A stretch of DNA of 64,000 nt from an uncultured Bacteroidia bacterium (GTDB lineage Bacteria > Bacteroidota > Bacteroidia > Bacteroidales > UBA932). This document shows, piece after piece, positions 13,394-24,807 of this stretch. Location of the stretch: the NCBI GenBank assembly GCA_902789245.1, contig CADAND010000010.1:73323-137322 (forward strand), given 5' to 3'. The notes beneath the pieces are model-generated. The model searched no databases and had not been told where the DNA came from. It worked only from the letters and a program-made list of their open reading frames with translations. Both the position numbers and the translations under genes were made by a program. The number at the start of each line of letters is the position of its first letter. Positions within the stretch are counted from its first letter, which is position 1.

Positions 13394-14364
13394 TTTGTTT
13401 GATGGTGTGCAAAAATATTGGCCAGGATGGTGCCGCTGATGCTGTGCCAGGCGCAGGAGATGGCGCAGGGCACGACGGCCATCGGATTGCTGGCCACGAA
13501 GAAGGTCATGGCCAGGTTGGTGCCCAGGCCGGCGTTCTGCATACCCACTTCGATGGAGATGGTGCGTTTCTTGGCCGTATTGAAGTGGAACAGCGTGCCG
13601 ACAAGATAGCCAAGCACATACCCTATCGTATTGTGGCAGAACACCATGCCGAAGGTCAGCAGGAACAGGACCAGGCCGTTCTCCACCAGCGGGTCATGGA
13701 CCGTGGTGATGACGCCGCCCACGATGCAGGCGAGGCAGATAACCGACACGCCCGGCATGCAGCCCTGAATCTTACGGAACACATCTTTATGTCCCAGCCA
13801 TACGTTCAGGAAGAAACCGATGGCGATGGGGATGATTGTCACGATGAGGATCTGGCGGAACATGCCCCAGGCGTCGACATCCACCCGCTCCCCCGCCAGG
13901 GCGAGCACCAGCAGCGGCGTAAGCACGGGCGCGAGCAGCGTCGAGGCGCAGGTCATGCCCACGGAGTAGGCAACATCGCCTTTGCAGAGGAAGGACATGA
14001 TGTTGCTTGATACCCCGCCCGGGCAGCAGCCGACGAGGATGATGCCGATGGCCATCGCGGTGCTGTAAGGAGCAAACGCAGGCACCTGGCCGAAAAGCCA
14101 GGAAAGGGAGAACGCGACCAGCGGCATGATCGTAAACTGCGCCGCCGCACCGATGAGGATGTCGAACGGGCGCTGCGCCAGCAGTTTGAAATCCTGGGGC
14201 GTGAGCGTAAGCCCCATGGAGAGCATGATGATACCCAGGATGATGGTCTGTGTATCCCCCTTCACCCAGGCAAAAAGCTGGGGAAAGAAGAAGGTGACCA
14301 ACGCGGTCAGAATGATGAACAGGCTGGCCTTCCCGCTTAAGAAATCACTGATGGTTTTAAACAT
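13375..14364 (-). CDS. Bile acid:sodium symporter (BASS) family transporter
   Basis: A 329-residue inner-membrane protein with about nine or ten hydrophobic segments. The family signature GIILVGCCPGGVSSNIM and the later MQNAGLGTNLAM, with its crossover-type glycine and asparagine, fit sodium-coupled organic anion transporters of the BASS family. Real substrates in bacteria include pantoate and other organic acids, so bile acid transport should not be assumed. The start MFKTISDFL overlaps the 3' end of the flavoprotein gene by 8 bases; a longer frame is possible but reads antiphase through that gene. Confidence 0.88.
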   Translation of the reverse strand: MFKTISDFLSGKASLFIILTALVTFFFPQLFAWVKGDTQTIILGIIMLSMGLTLTPQDFKLLAQRPFDILIGAAAQFTIMPLVAFSLSWLFGQVPAFAPYSTAMAIGIILVGCCPGGVSSNIMSFLCKGDVAYSVGMTCASTLLAPVLTPLLVLALAGERVDVDAWGMFRQILIVTIIPIAIGFFLNVWLGHKDVFRKIQGCMPGVSVICLACIVGGVITTVHDPLVENGLVLFLLTFGMVFCHNTIGYVLGYLVGTLFHFNTAKKRTISIEVGMQNAGLGTNLAMTFFVASNPMAVVPCAISCAWHSISGTILANIFAHHQTNGVQNT

Positions 14365-15898
14365 ACTTGAGATGAGGTTTGAGGGACTTTGCGGCATTGA
14401 TTCCGGCCAGGGCGCCGGTCGAGAAGGCAAGCTGGAGGTTGTAGCCGCCCGTGTCGGCGTCGATATCGAGCACTTCACCGCAGAGATAGAGGCCGGGAAC
14501 GATGCGGGACTCCATCGTCTTGGCGACGAAGTCGTCCGTCGACACGCCGCCGGCGGTGACGACCGCGCGCTCGTAGCCGACGTAGCCGGCGATATCGAAC
14601 TGCCAGGCTTTCAGCGCCTTGGCGATACTGACCAGGTTCACCCACACCTTGGTGTCGGCTCTCCCCCGCCGCTCCACCGTGATGATCTCGGGGTGCATGG
14701 CGGTGAAGCCCGGGATGAGCTCGCGCGGCATCAGTTTGCCCAGCAGGATGCGGCAGCGCTCCTTCTCGCGCACGCCCCGCGAGCGCGGGTCCTTGGCGAT
14801 TTCCTCCCAGAGGGCCTTGACGCGGACGGTCAGTTCGGTCAGGTCCACGCCCGGCTTGAGGTCGAGCAGCAGGCTGACGCGCGAGCCGTTCACGAGGGCC
14901 TTGACGGCCTTGCGGCTGAGCTGGAAACCGACGGGCCCTTCCAGGCCGCCGTCGGTGAAGTCGATGTCGCCGAATTCGCTGTCCACGTCCGTCCCTTCGA
15001 TGCGCAGCGCGAGCTGGATATTCTTGAGCTGCACCCCGCAAAGGGCCTGTCCAAGCTCGGACAGCGGCGTGCTGCGGTCAATGTGCAAGTCTTTGTCTTC
15101 CTGGAGTTTGTATCCTTTCGGAACGAGTGCCGTCAGCGACGGGAAAGTCGGCACCAGCTGGTGTCCCAGCTCCTGCGCCCAGCGCAGTCCGTCGCCGGTC
15201 GAGCCCGTCGTCGGATAGCTCAGGCCCCCGGTCGCCACGATCAGGCGCTCGCATTTCCACTCCCGACCGTCGGCCAGTTTCAGGGTGAAGCCGGCAGGCA
15301 GCTCCCCCTGTAAAACGTCCGGCTGCGCCGGACCCCTCCCACAGTCCTTTGAGCAGAGGTCTGCAAGCAAGCTTGCGCCCTCATCTCCAAGTCCTGCGGG
15401 CCCCTCCCTCTTACGGAGCCGAGGGTGGCTACGGTTTTCCAGGGGGACTGCCTCCGCGGCTGAATTCACCCTGAAATCGACGACTTCTGCTTCCGTTTCG
15501 ATTTTGACGCCGAGCGAAAGACAGGCGTTCACGAGCGTATCGACGACGTCGGAGGCGTGGTGCGAGGCCGGGAAGGCACGGTCGCCGCGCTCGACGACGG
15601 TCTCCATGCCGAAGCCCTCGAACCAGTCCACGACAGCCTGCGAGGGAAGGTTATAGAAAGCGGATTTGACGAAGTTGGCCTTCGAGCGAATGTGCCCCGA
15701 AAAGGCGTTCCAGTCCTTCACGTTCGTGAAATTGCAACGGCCCTTGCCGGTGATCATCACCTTGCGGGCCGGCCGCGGCATCTTCTCCAGCACCGTCACC
15801 TGCGCCGCCTGTCCAGCGTCCACAAGCGCACGGGCGGCGTGATAAGCCGCCATCAGCCCCGAGGCTCCCGCGCCGATTACAACGATTTCCGATTTCAT
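14357..15898 (-). CDS. HI0933/YhiN-family FAD-dependent oxidoreductase carrying an in-frame repeat insertion
   Basis: A 513-residue flavoprotein. The N-terminal VVIGAGASGLMAA is the FAD-binding GxGxxG motif. RKVMITGKGRCNFTN and the C-terminal GEVLDIDADTGGYNLQ are signatures of the HI0933 family, whose physiological substrate is unknown. Residues about 151-199 come from a palindromic repeat (15303-15447) that has a relative inside another flavoprotein gene at 24 kb. The family domain resumes cleanly on both sides, at ETEAEVVDFRVNSAA and FTLKLADGREWKCERLIVAT. The protein is longer than the family norm of about 400. ATG at 15898 is chosen because GxGxxG follows directly and the SRP RNA ends just upstream. 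Confidence 0.9.
   Translation of the reverse strand: MKSEIVVIGAGASGLMAAYHAARALVDAGQAAQVTVLEKMPRPARKVMITGKGRCNFTNVKDWNAFSGHIRSKANFVKSAFYNLPSQAVVDWFEGFGMETVVERGDRAFPASHHASDVVDTLVNACLSLGVKIETEAEVVDFRVNSAAEAVPLENRSHPRLRKREGPAGLGDEGASLLADLCSKDCGRGPAQPDVLQGELPAGFTLKLADGREWKCERLIVATGGLSYPTTGSTGDGLRWAQELGHQLVPTFPSLTALVPKGYKLQEDKDLHIDRSTPLSELGQALCGVQLKNIQLALRIEGTDVDSEFGDIDFTDGGLEGPVGFQLSRKAVKALVNGSRVSLLLDLKPGVDLTELTVRVKALWEEIAKDPRSRGVREKERCRILLGKLMPRELIPGFTAMHPEIITVERRGRADTKVWVNLVSIAKALKAWQFDIAGYVGYERAVVTAGGVSTDDFVAKTMESRIVPGLYLCGEVLDIDADTGGYNLQLAFSTGALAGINAAKSLKPHLKYV
15303..15447. repeat. Palindromic element copy A, inside a flavoprotein gene
   Basis: About 145 bp with inverted ends: TCCCCCTGTAAAACG at one side, and on the other strand TCCCCCTGGAAAACCG. 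Inside are GGGAGGGGTCCGGCGCAGCC (a GTCCGGC-x-GCCGGAC palindrome) and AGAGGGAGGGGCCC, all also present in copy B at 24064-24158. The central 60 or so bases have no counterpart in copy B. The host reading frame stays open across the whole element. Confidence 0.8.
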
Positions 15899-15911: not shown

Positions 15912-16017
15912 AAAAAAGGGAAAGCTTAGCACATCGCACCGCTACAACCTCCTGCCCTTGCTGCCTTCCGGCCCTGGGGGAGTTCAGAGGGAGCTGGTCG
16001 TGTACGACTTTCCCGCT
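15912..16017 (-). ncRNA. ffs: Signal recognition particle RNA, small bacterial type
   Basis: On the minus strand the RNA begins AGCGGGAAAGTC and ends GCTTTCCC followed by six T residues; the two ends pair. The apical region contains CCAGGGCCGGAAGGCAGCA, the invariant Ffh-binding tetraloop and symmetric-loop sequence of domain IV. The length of about 100 nt is that of 4.5S-type RNA without an Alu domain. It has its own promoter box and a U-run terminator 14 bases from the flavoprotein start. It targets nascent membrane proteins together with Ffh. Confidence 0.93.
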
Positions 16018-16018
16018 G

Positions 16019-16026
16019 CAAATATA
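16019..16026 (-). promoter_or_regulatory. Promoter -7 box for SRP RNA
   Basis: TATATTTG on the minus strand, immediately before the predicted 5' end of the SRP RNA. Confidence 0.65.
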
Positions 16027-22576: not shown

Positions 22577-23152
22577 TTAGAACTCCACGGCGCGGAAGAG
22601 GGCTTCCGCGAGCAGGCGCGCGCCGTCGCGCTGGGGATGGACGCCGTCCCGGCAGAGGCGCGCGCTGTCGAAGAGGTCATAGAGGTCGATAAACTGCAGG
22701 TGCAACTGGGCGGCGATGTCCCGGATGGCGGGACGGACCCCCTCTTCCAGCACGTCCGGATTGAGGATCGTGACGGGAATCAGTTTGAAGATGCGGATGG
22801 GCGCGACGAGCACCACCCGCGGGTGCGAGGGCAGCGCGAGATAAGACTCCACCAGCCGAAGATAGTCCTCCCGGAAGATGCCGGGATTCCAGTTCCAGGG
22901 TTTGGTGTCGTTGGTCCCGAGCATCAGCAGGACGATGTCCGGCTCCCAGGCCAGGCTGTCCCGGTAGGCTTTCTTGCTGACATAAGGCGTATCCGCATCG
23001 AAACGGGCCGCGGCGTCGTTGTGGCCGAAATTGCGGACTTCGAACCCTTCGCCCAGCAGCTGCTGCAGCACAGCGGGATAGCTGTACTTGCCACGGTTCA
23101 CAATGGTGAAACCCCAGGTGATGCTGTCTCCGACGCAGGCTACCTTCTTCAT
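22577..23152 (-). CDS. SGNH/GDSL-family hydrolase
   Basis: A 191-residue esterase or lipase-like protein. ACVGDSITWGF carries the catalytic serine in block I. NFGHNDAAARF fits block II, LMLGTNDTKPW is block III with its asparagine, and CRDGVHPQRDGA is block V with the catalytic aspartate and histidine. No signal peptide is seen, so it is probably cytoplasmic. Its substrate cannot be named. The start codon overlaps the TGA of the upstream FAD dehydrogenase gene (ATGA at 23152-23149), so the two are translationally coupled. Confidence 0.88.
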   Translation of the reverse strand: MKKVACVGDSITWGFTIVNRGKYSYPAVLQQLLGEGFEVRNFGHNDAAARFDADTPYVSKKAYRDSLAWEPDIVLLMLGTNDTKPWNWNPGIFREDYLRLVESYLALPSHPRVVLVAPIRIFKLIPVTILNPDVLEEGVRPAIRDIAAQLHLQFIDLYDLFDSARLCRDGVHPQRDGARLLAEALFRAVEF

Positions 23153-24807
23153 GCCTCGCCGGGTTTGAGCGACCGGGCCACGGCCTCGGCCACGTTGATG
23201 CCGTCCAGTGCGCTGGACACGATGCCGCCCGCATAGCCAGCGCCTTCCCCGCAAGGGAAGATGCCCGGCAGCGAGACGTACTCAAGCGTCTCGGGGTCGC
23301 GCGGGATGCGGACCGGCGAGGAGGTGCGGGATTCGACGCCGAGCAGCAGCGCGGCATTCGTATAGTAGTTGCGCATTTTCACGCGCGGGAAAGCTTTCTG
23401 GAGGCGCTGGGCCACGTGCGGCGGCAGGATTTCGTGCAGCGGGGCGCTCACCACGCCGGGGTGGTAACTGGTCGGAGGCATCGTCTTGGACACTTTGCCG
23501 AGGCAGAAATCCTCCATGCGCTGCGCCGGCGCGGTCATCGGGTTGGTCGCGCCCAGCGCCTGCGCGCAATCATACATCTTGCGCTCGACTGCGTGCTGGA
23601 AATCCATCAGCTTGAAAGGGCCCTCGCCGGGCACATCGTCCGGCTCGATCTGGACCACGACGCCCGCGTTGGCGAACTTGCCGCTGCGCCCGGAATTGGA
23701 CATGCCGTTCAGCACGACGGTCTGCTCCTCGGTCGAAGACGGCACCAGGACGCCGCCGGGGCACATACAGAAGGAGAACACGCCGCGTCCGTCCACCTGC
23801 TCGACGAAGGAGTACTCCGCCGCCGGCACGCCCGGCTTCCACTGGCCGTGGTACTGGCACCAGTTGATCTTCTCCTGCGGATGCTCCACGCGTACGCCCA
23901 TCGCGAAGCCTTTCGCCTCGAGCGCCCCGCCCATCCCGGCCAGCATCTCGTACACGTCGCGGGCGGAATGTCCCGTCGCCAGAATCACCCGCCGCGCCTT
24001 GTATTCCTTCCCGTCCGCCGTCTTGATCACCATTTCCGCCACTTCATCGGCCGAATCGGGGGTCGCCCCGGAAAACCGTGCCACCCTCGGCATCGAAAGA
24101 GGGAGGGGCCCATCGCAAGATGGGAGGGGTCCGGCGCAGCCGGACGTTTTCAGGGGCGAGCCCCCGATCGGCGAAGCGGCGGAAACCGAGATGACTTTCG
24201 AATTGAAATGGTATTCACCGCCCTGGGCGATGATGAAGTTGCGGATGTTCTCCACGATGACCGGCAGTTTATCAGAGCCGATGTGCGGATGCGCATCGAT
24301 GAGGATGTCCTTCGAAGCGCCGAACTTCACCAGCTGGTGCAGCACCTCGCGCAGGTCGCCCCGCTTGGACGAACGCGTATAGAGTTTGCCGTCGGAGAAG
24401 GCGCCCGCGCCCCCCTCGCCATAACAGTAATTCGAATCGGGATCGACGACGCCGTCGCGCGAGAGTTTCGCCATATCGAACTTGCGCGCGTGCACGTCCT
24501 TGCCGCGCTCCAGCACGACGGGCTTGAGTCCGAGCGTCAGGAGCTTGAGCGCGGCGAACATGCCGGCCGGACCGGCGCCCACGACGACCACCGGCTCGGC
24601 ATCGTGGACGTCGAGGTACTCCGGCAGCGCGTAGGGCACGTACTCCTCGCCGGGCCCGTACGCCTCGTACTGATAGCGCCAGACCGACTCCTTGCGCGCA
24701 TCGACAGAGCGCTTCTTCAGCACCCATTTCATGCCGCCGGCCTTGGCCTCGATCTCCTTGAGACGCGGTTCCCGCGTGAGCGGGCAGACAACTTCAAACT
24801 CCTTCAT
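23149..24807 (-). CDS. FAD-dependent dehydrogenase (COG2509-like) with an in-frame repeat insertion
   Basis: A 552-residue flavoprotein. After an N-terminal domain of about 70 residues, the FAD motif VVVGAGPAGMFAAL appears. It is followed by YCYGEGGAGAFSDGKL, typical of this uncharacterised dehydrogenase family, and by the C-terminal GIFPCGEGAGYAGGIVSSA. Residues about 217-248 derive from a palindromic element (24064-24158), in the opposite orientation from its relative in the 14-16 kb flavoprotein gene. The family sequence continues on both sides (NSKVISVSAA and EMVIKTADGKEYKARRVILA). The gene starts 7 bases after the tsaD stop. Confidence 0.9.
   Translation of the reverse strand: MKEFEVVCPLTREPRLKEIEAKAGGMKWVLKKRSVDARKESVWRYQYEAYGPGEEYVPYALPEYLDVHDAEPVVVVGAGPAGMFAALKLLTLGLKPVVLERGKDVHARKFDMAKLSRDGVVDPDSNYCYGEGGAGAFSDGKLYTRSSKRGDLREVLHQLVKFGASKDILIDAHPHIGSDKLPVIVENIRNFIIAQGGEYHFNSKVISVSAASPIGGSPLKTSGCAGPLPSCDGPLPLSMPRVARFSGATPDSADEVAEMVIKTADGKEYKARRVILATGHSARDVYEMLAGMGGALEAKGFAMGVRVEHPQEKINWCQYHGQWKPGVPAAEYSFVEQVDGRGVFSFCMCPGGVLVPSSTEEQTVVLNGMSNSGRSGKFANAGVVVQIEPDDVPGEGPFKLMDFQHAVERKMYDCAQALGATNPMTAPAQRMEDFCLGKVSKTMPPTSYHPGVVSAPLHEILPPHVAQRLQKAFPRVKMRNYYTNAALLLGVESRTSSPVRIPRDPETLEYVSLPGIFPCGEGAGYAGGIVSSALDGINVAEAVARSLKPGEA
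24064..24158. repeat. Palindromic element copy B, inside a FAD dehydrogenase gene
   Basis: About 95 bp. The ends CGCCCCGGAAAACC and, on the other strand, CGCCCCTGAAAACG are inverted repeats. It shares GCCACCCTCGG, AGAGGGAGGGGCCC, GGGAGGGGTCCGGCGCAGCC and GGACGTTTT with copy A, but has only about 10 bases in the centre where copy A has 60. The host frame is open throughout. Confidence 0.8.

Follow-up and report, generated by a model that had tools for sequence, protein, structure and literature searches.

The stretch of DNA analyzed in this study (hereafter the window) comprises 64,000 nt from an uncultured Bacteroidia bacterium (GCA_902789245.1, contig CADAND010000010.1, positions 73,323-137,322 of the forward strand) and contains two copies of a palindromic element, each inserted in a flavoprotein gene. 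The element is dispersed, occupies a given site in some close relatives but not in others, and inside genes lies almost always in frame and without stops, in either direction. Its arms are nearly free to differ between copies but are matched within a copy, and its orientation differs between species at the same site. An original prediction, made from the sequence of the window alone, had described exact blocks shared by the two stretches, read in opposite directions relative to otherwise normal host genes and ending in similar inverted repeats, and our analysis bears out each of these points. The 24-mer GTCCGGCTGCGCCGGACCCCTCCC was found at two places in the window (15317-15340, plus strand; 24122-24145, minus strand), both exact in a search tolerating up to three mismatches, and a second conserved block, GGGCCCCTCCC..GGGTGGC, was likewise found at two places (15398-15429, plus strand; 24080-24111, minus strand), with no occurrence of either in 100 shuffles. 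Since the blocks lie on opposite strands and both host genes are encoded on the minus strand, the element is read oppositely in the two proteins. Both copies are bordered by inverted repeats. The stretches first delimited at 15303-15447 and 24064-24158 do exist, but these inverted repeats extend past them, to about 15278-15476 and 24026-24192. Residues are indeed added to both predicted proteins, but the 32 to 48 first proposed are too few: compared with the closest empty orthologs, those of genome G096, the aligned stretch measures 79 versus 21 residues in the HI0933-family protein (+58) and 66 versus 18 residues in the COG2509-type protein (+48). The two host genes and the parts of both copies are as follows.

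14357..15898, minus strand: host gene 1, HI0933-family flavoprotein (PF03486, E 8.5e-74, in two stretches; open reading frame open to 15913, first Met codon at 15898)
15278..15476: copy A with full arms, C-rich strand on the plus strand; in frame, the sense strand of host gene 1 being the G-rich strand
15278..15289, plus strand: outermost left arm of copy A, TTTCAGGGTGAA, judged to be native host sequence; inverted repeat I2
15303..15316, plus strand: inner left arm of the outer stem of copy A, inverted repeat I1, 93% complementary to 15434-15447
15317..15333, plus strand: hairpin H1 of copy A, GTCCGGC-TGC-GCCGGAC; varies between copies
15334..15400, plus strand: CCCTCCC and hairpin H2 closed by GGG, copy A; extended H2 variant
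15401..15433, plus strand: hairpin H3 of copy A, CCCCTCCCTC-TTACGGAGCC-GAGGGTGG, with linker CTACG
15434..15447, plus strand: inner right arm of the outer stem of copy A, inverted repeat I1
15465..15476, plus strand: outermost right arm of copy A, TTCACCCTGAAA, judged to be an inverted copy of the left flank
23149..24807, minus strand: host gene 2, COG2509-type FAD-dependent protein (PF21688, E 4.9e-62; open reading frame open to 24813)
24026..24192, minus strand: copy B with full arms, C-rich strand on the minus strand, which is the sense strand of host gene 2
24050..24076, minus strand: outer-stem arm of copy B on the H3 side, inverted repeat I1
24080..24111, minus strand: GGG closing H2 and hairpin H3, copy B
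24122..24145, minus strand: hairpin H1 and CCCTCCC, copy B
24146..24172, minus strand: outer-stem arm of copy B on the H1 side, inverted repeat I1, 27 nt, 81% complementary to 24050-24076

Copy A is absent from the orthologs of G096 (flanks 93-94% identical), G124, G166, G113 and G008. Its outermost bases are judged to consist of host sequence and an inverted copy of host sequence: by eye, TTTCAGGGTGAA resembles the same place in the orthologs L186 and L190, and TTCACCCTGAAA was not seen at the corresponding place in the empty orthologs. Copy B is absent from G096 (L070) and from L071, L073 and L076, and the same loop of the COG2509-type protein contains versions of the element, in both orientations, in L062-L069, L074 and L075. 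In both window genes the insert is found at a similar place, just before the strand ending in ADG(R/K)E that leads to the ATG motif, which, from the alignment, points to a loop position. The corresponding loops of relatives also contain other inserts that do not resemble the element (L202, L204, L207 and L089). Directly upstream of the HI0933 gene, at about 15914-16021 on the minus strand, lies a Bacteroidales small signal recognition particle (SRP) RNA gene (RF04183, 104.5 bits).

The element has a conserved three-hairpin core sitting on an outer stem with a median span of 30 bp. Read on the C-rich strand, the core consists of the variable hairpin H1, CCCTCCC, the variable hairpin H2 closed by GGG, and H3 (CCCCTCCCTC-loop-GAGGGTGG), with a few degenerate copies (e.g., L026). 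Single-strand folding gave the outer stem and the hairpins with z-scores of -6.1 to -9.6 (five folds of three copies, two of which were folded on both strands). When 36 copies were aligned, both sides had changed in 7 of 15 predicted pairs, and the two inner pairs of H3 are complementary, with three pair types, in 247 of the 248 copies that could be parsed among 250 (a set that leaves out loci L243-L279 and those from L422 on). The string CGTC is located just before CCCTCCC in 173 of these 250 copies, 161 of which have GAC at the far end of H1. No Rfam family accounts for the element at the 13 loci scanned; apart from the SRP RNA, all six matches stayed below the gathering threshold, two of them being mir-214 matches on one palindrome. 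Four copies of the window's own genome, namely copy A (L001), L002, L003 and L004, have an extended H2 and form a separate subfamily, with identities to copy A of 85-91% for L002, L003 and L004.

The shared blocks are not confined to the two window sites. BLAST gave 34 matches in the window's own genome, which correspond to at least 22 copies: 22 distinct copies that were read, plus two weaker matches left unread. Sixteen of the 22 lie inside open reading frames with a Pfam family. The host genes, named after the matched families, encode an SpoU/TrmH methylase, an RlmI-like methyltransferase, an RluA-type pseudouridine synthase, PmbA/TldD, RibF, DnaX, DsbD, PolA, RNase R, a HemW-like radical SAM protein, UvrD, TrmB, KsgA, a YgiQ-like radical SAM protein and the two flavoproteins. 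Several inserts fall between domains: in PolA the masked insert (residues 312-368) separates the 5'-3' exonuclease match (ending at 286) from the 3'-5' exonuclease match (starting at 413), in UvrD (481-538) it lies between domain matches ending at 393 and starting at 554, and in RibF (170-226, the mask including a margin) the two flanking matches end at 183 and start at 249. In RNase R and YgiQ the insert lies within a domain match. The other six copies are outside Pfam-matched genes, three in scanned open reading frames with no match (L005, L012, L024) and three where no open reading frame was scanned (L009, L010, L027), and some copies are intergenic. By eye, L009 follows the stop of a gene ending in a DDLPF tail, presumably ssb, L010 and L024 also follow a stop, and L012 is located at the 3' end of a gene. 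A second dispersed repeat of about 45 bp, ATAGCG..CCCCCTTGAGGGGGCGCAGGGGGTGA, is found in the right flank of L015, beside the element in PolA, and also at L405; in G096 it occurs at several places, including the DnaX site, and some copies are present in G124 and G166.

The inserts keep the host frame open, as had been predicted. Across 16 gene families, with host homology on both sides and with inserts masked in the queries, 76 of 77 gene-embedded copies continue the host frame without a stop, the sole failure being L218, where the frame is lost after the insert. We used this masked count since the unmasked one (98/104) took in cross-matches through the inserts themselves. The sense strand is the C-rich strand in 47 of the 77 embedded copies and the G-rich strand in 30. 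Over the 250 copies, an average of 1.82 of the three frames is open on the C-rich strand and 1.37 on the G-rich strand (1.19 and 0.88 after shuffling), so that openness in the host frame, at 76 of 77, looks selected. Inspected by eye, the insert peptides contain much Gly, Pro, Ala, Ser and Arg.

Comparison with element-free orthologs was based mainly on G096, the closest relative examined, with flank identities of 92-94% at the two window genes, 86-91% at TrmH and 83-97% at the other matched flanks, except for a gapped span of 71% at L009. Fourteen of the 22 own sites are element-free in G096 (HI0933, COG2509, TrmH, L003, L005, L007, L009, L010, L011, L012, L016, L024, L026 and L029), three of them (L005, L010, L029) with other sequence present. 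At the L005 site this genome carries a TTCGCTTCGCTCAGAATGACA repeat (L403; G096:C50). Four sites are occupied in both genomes (L004, L006, L019, L030), with opposite orientation at L004 and L030. Another four are undecided, namely L008, where other sequence and a fragment like an element end are present, L015, L022 and L027. No match in G096 was found for the last two; G124 has the element at L022 but not at L027, which is also empty in G166. A bare palindrome without core, AGCAGCGGT..ACCGCTGCT, is present in G096 at L011, and another in L072 (G299) at the COG2509 site. These bare palindromes represent either footprints of loss or earlier hairpins that were used as targets. No target-site duplication was evident by eye in the empty-site comparisons, in which duplications were not counted.

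Each outer stem is complementary to itself, although its sequence varies from copy to copy. We compared 189 copies (201 distinct copies less 12 from G016), in which an arm scored on average 22.4 with its own partner and 6.7 with mismatched partners, the own partner being the best in 168 of 189. After five more copies without a boundary near the core were dropped, 184 remained (copies near locus ends had been dropped uncounted), with an interquartile range of 27-39 around the median stem span. At odd stem positions 11-27 of these 184 copies, column identity between copies is near random (0.26-0.46), and pairing with the own partner reaches 0.70-0.98 with gaps and 0.55-0.90 without, versus 0.25-0.47 for permuted partners. 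Among orthologous copies, 241 arm positions differ in 50 pairs with a flank identity of at least 80% and a left-arm identity of at least 0.7; in this count, whose filters favor paired arms, the change in one arm is matched in the other with pairing kept in both species at 143 positions, is found on one side only at 89, and occurs on both sides without full pairing at nine. At three sites (HI0933 with TTTCAGGGTGAA/TTCACCCTGAAA, L012 and L024), the outermost right arm looks by eye like an inverted copy of the native left flank, which at L024 includes the host stop codon. An origin of the arms wholly from host sequence at insertion is weakened by the 12 G016 copies, which keep similar arms, so that arms can travel with the element. 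These copies (L151-L162) represent a recent burst, with a mean identity of 93.5% and a lowest identity of 88.4% over core and arms, and some lie within larger repeat arrays.

The same protein loop is occupied by the element in many species. Among the 250 copies, 200 pairs share both flanks, four of an initial 204 having been dropped because they paired a locus with itself; the two elements have the same orientation in 114 pairs and opposite orientations in 86. There are 33 occupied orthologous sites, 18 of which include a pair in opposite orientation between species. For orthologs with at least 80% flank identity, the 63 opposite-orientation pairs exceed 2000 random pairs from different sites in both core identity (0.794 versus 0.751, p 6e-4) and arm identity (0.693 versus 0.549, p 1e-13), values that are below or near those of the 81 same-orientation orthologs (0.833 and 0.727, respectively).

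A BLAST search with one copy was positive in 19 of 24 genomes of the same genus besides the own genome and in none of 16 genomes of other families. A covariance model of the core, built from 36 copies, detected the element in 265 of 300 genus genomes, own included; at most 14 candidates were scored per genome, so that copy numbers are lower bounds. Across the order, 6 of 393 genomes were positive (the own genome, one weak match in the same genus, another genus of the same family and three from other families), and in a sample of the phylum only the own genome was (1/395). The inserts are thus no protein segment conserved in distant genera, an outcome that would have spoken against a mobile palindrome. 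In named genomes we found at least 119 stretches; the 80 listed are all ‘Bacteroidales’ or ‘Bacteroidia bacterium’ records, many titled as coming from the rumen or other parts of the gut. Judged by its size and habitat, the genus may be GTDB Cryptobacteroides. Carriage by phages or plasmids is unsupported: viral contigs gave no match to one exact pattern, phages none to one query of 131 bases, and plasmids only partial matches in Azospirillum. The Azospirillum plasmids L399 and L400 share CCCTCCCACCGCTTCGCGGCGGGCCCCTCCCTC, the H2 part of the core, followed by a different third hairpin, and L401 nearly shares it, differing near the end, a likeness due to either common descent or convergence; L399 and L401 are intergenic and L400 is unannotated. 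In G326, five copies (L264-L267, L271), four of them at contig ends and the other close to one, are each joined, by eye, to terminator-like hairpins that resemble one another, so that the mobile unit may be longer in this genome.

We consider it likely that these inserts are copies of a non-autonomous, selfish palindromic mobile element, comparable to the Rickettsia palindromic elements (RPEs) and repetitive extragenic palindromic (REP) sequences, which is spread throughout the coding and non-coding DNA of the genus and which template switching keeps paired and turns around. When replication switches template between inverted repeats, arm homogenization and spacer inversion are reported to result (PMC8604942). 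Since marks of the former and possible marks of the latter are present here, the long hairpin probably keeps itself paired, spreads outward into host sequence and flips during replication. The hairpin would make replication switch template between the arms, by which changes in one arm would be copied into the other. Such a switch could also copy adjoining host sequence in inverted form, making the stem grow outward, and could invert the spacer, which is here the core. Insertions that break genes would be lost by selection, and the remaining ones would add a short segment, often at domain linkers and loop tips. The two arms appear to keep copying each other, with each insert evolving as one folded unit. 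A bolder version, which we consider improbable, proposes a self-rewriting, flipping module within genes: hairpins formed in replication would copy both one arm into the other and host flank into an arm, and would turn the core around frequently enough for a single housekeeping protein to have two insert versions within a population, with dozens of core enzymes switching isoforms without a recombinase.

Several points weigh against the reading as a mobile element maintained by template switching. The spacer inversions in the passages considered from PMC8604942 are substitutions of 2-5 bp, far shorter than the core of the element, and no mobilizing enzyme was found, where a REP-associated tyrosine transposase (RAYT) was examined as candidate and no recombinase search was made. 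The arm signal is weak beyond about 25 bp from the core, where only 25 of 189 copies exceed the 99th percentile of mismatched pairs. Paired arms were favored by the pattern that picked copies for the orthologous-site and in-frame counts, which needed a stem score of at least 12, and likewise by the left-arm identity filter in the count of compensated changes; the 89 one-sided positions in that count mean that homogenization is not instantaneous. Four of the 18 sites with mixed orientation (with L075, L094, L164 and L174) include a locus with two neighboring elements, so that the pair may compare neighbors. The identity of H1 and H2 combined is lower in flipped than in unflipped orthologs (0.619 versus 0.713, p 0.025), and all p values on orthologous pairs are only a guide because the pairs are not independent. 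Inversion in place is therefore not fully distinguishable from loss of the element followed by re-insertion at a loop that tolerates it.

The element might instead be REPIN-like and moved as single-stranded DNA by a RAYT, a transposase of the Y1 family. It is hairpin-rich, GC-rich, dispersed and located within gene classes that are also given for REPs (polA, uvrD, pseudouridine synthase; PMC3733652), RAYT-like genes are present in the own genome, and, among the genus genomes examined, RAYT homologues were found in 24 of 24 with the element and in 9 of 16 without it, as judged by the covariance model (for G245 also by the order-wide search). However, none of four carriers outside the genus has a RAYT homologue or a PF01797 match, the element-negative relatives G522 and G603 also have RAYT-like genes, and the element was found near only one of 18 fetched RAYT loci (17 places, flanks of roughly 1.5 kb). 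The GTAG string, sought on either strand throughout the core and inner arms, is present in only 120 of the 250 copies and missing from 130. We consequently rejected RAYT/Y1 as sole mobilizer and regard this origin as unlikely. Genome G144 gave no RAYT homologue match and one weak PF01797 match below the cut-off. Selection for an RNA fold, with the element acting as a structured regulator or terminator whose arms are paired by compensatory selection, would agree with the conserved, covarying fold including H3, with the position of L009, L010 and L024 after a stop codon and with the terminator-like hairpin joined to the G326 copies. This origin is nonetheless doubtful, given that 16 of 22 own copies lie inside Pfam-matched genes, that intragenic copies occur in both orientations, that no Rfam family was matched and that the inverted copies of host flank exceed what fold-keeping selection requires.

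A programmed inverton, flipped within genes by a dedicated recombinase to give protein variants, would account for a core that is flanked by inverted repeats, occurs in both orientations at 18 of 33 sites and is open in both. A recombinase site would be expected to recur, yet arms of different copies have little sequence in common outside the innermost bases, and the hosts belong to 16 unrelated, mostly housekeeping families, which makes this explanation very unlikely. Hairpin inserts in essential genes would seem costly, and bypassing elements are known in other systems, so that the insert might be spliced from the RNA or skipped by ribosomes, leaving a protein without it. Neither process would need the open, stop-free frames kept in 76 of 77 inserts, and we attach hardly any weight to it. 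As palindromes can mis-assemble and the 80 listed named carriers are titled metagenome-assembled genome, uncultured bacterium or similar, we also considered an assembly artefact, which is scarcely credible with the same sites and element in many assemblies, including carriers of five and eight contigs (G113 and G016), and with frames so consistently kept.

Among known systems, the invertons of Bacteroidales have a segment that occurs in either orientation and lies between inverted repeats. The element shares this layout, with both orientations at 18 of 33 sites between species, but it has no shared arm sequence and resides mostly in housekeeping genes. The GTAG/CGTC REPs are likewise short hairpin repeats, patchy over taxa and sometimes found in polA, uvrD and pseudouridine synthase genes; the CGTC repeats have no known transposase and were reported in Bacteroidetes (PMC3733652, also for the following definition). 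REPs measure 20-40 bp and have an unpaired tag, and the CGTC-tagged ones are defined by an unpaired CGTC tag, a stem of 8-9 bp with AT pairs first, and a CCA tail, whereas here GTC of the CGTC string pairs within the H1 stem and the stems begin with GTC/GAC. The template-switch inverted repeats of yeast resemble the element in arm homogenization and, possibly, spacer inversion in coding DNA, but the cases considered from PMC8604942 are short repeats with tiny spacers, in contrast to a dispersed element with a core of roughly at least 80 bp as spacer. In nematomorph mitochondria, long inverted repeats are translated within genes (PMC6649704); the arms there encode conserved protein, whereas here an added, non-conserved insert is repeated across genes. 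Compared with Rickettsia, the element provides a far larger natural data set: it is carried by 265 of 300 sampled genus genomes, in which the same gene loops recur, with alleles both filled and empty and with either orientation. This allows palindrome growth, arm-to-arm copying and flipping to be measured in living genomes, together with the tolerance of proteins to foreign linkers. Inserts of this kind may also be present in protein records of Bacteroidales, where they would pass for features of the protein family.

The best-known selfish palindromes that lie in frame are those of Rickettsia. As the original prediction had supposed, we found no description of an equivalent in Bacteroidales in the searched literature, judged from titles and openings of abstracts and with subscription journals mostly outside. 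The resemblance to RPEs (Ogata et al., 2000, 2002, via the review PMC10969869) that it had proposed is partly supported, as one of behavior. In both cases, palindromic inserts of the order of 150 bp are present in many copies, in frame in unrelated genes, and here the palindrome has at least 22 copies in one genome, is in frame in unrelated housekeeping genes in 76 of 77 cases and is absent from many close orthologs, including those at 14 of 22 sites in G096. The differences are another phylum, a three-hairpin core, an outer stem that varies between copies, both orientations at one gene site and, apparently, arm-to-arm copying. By its behavior, the element appears closest to the Rickettsia palindromic elements, in the sense that it works like one rather than is one.

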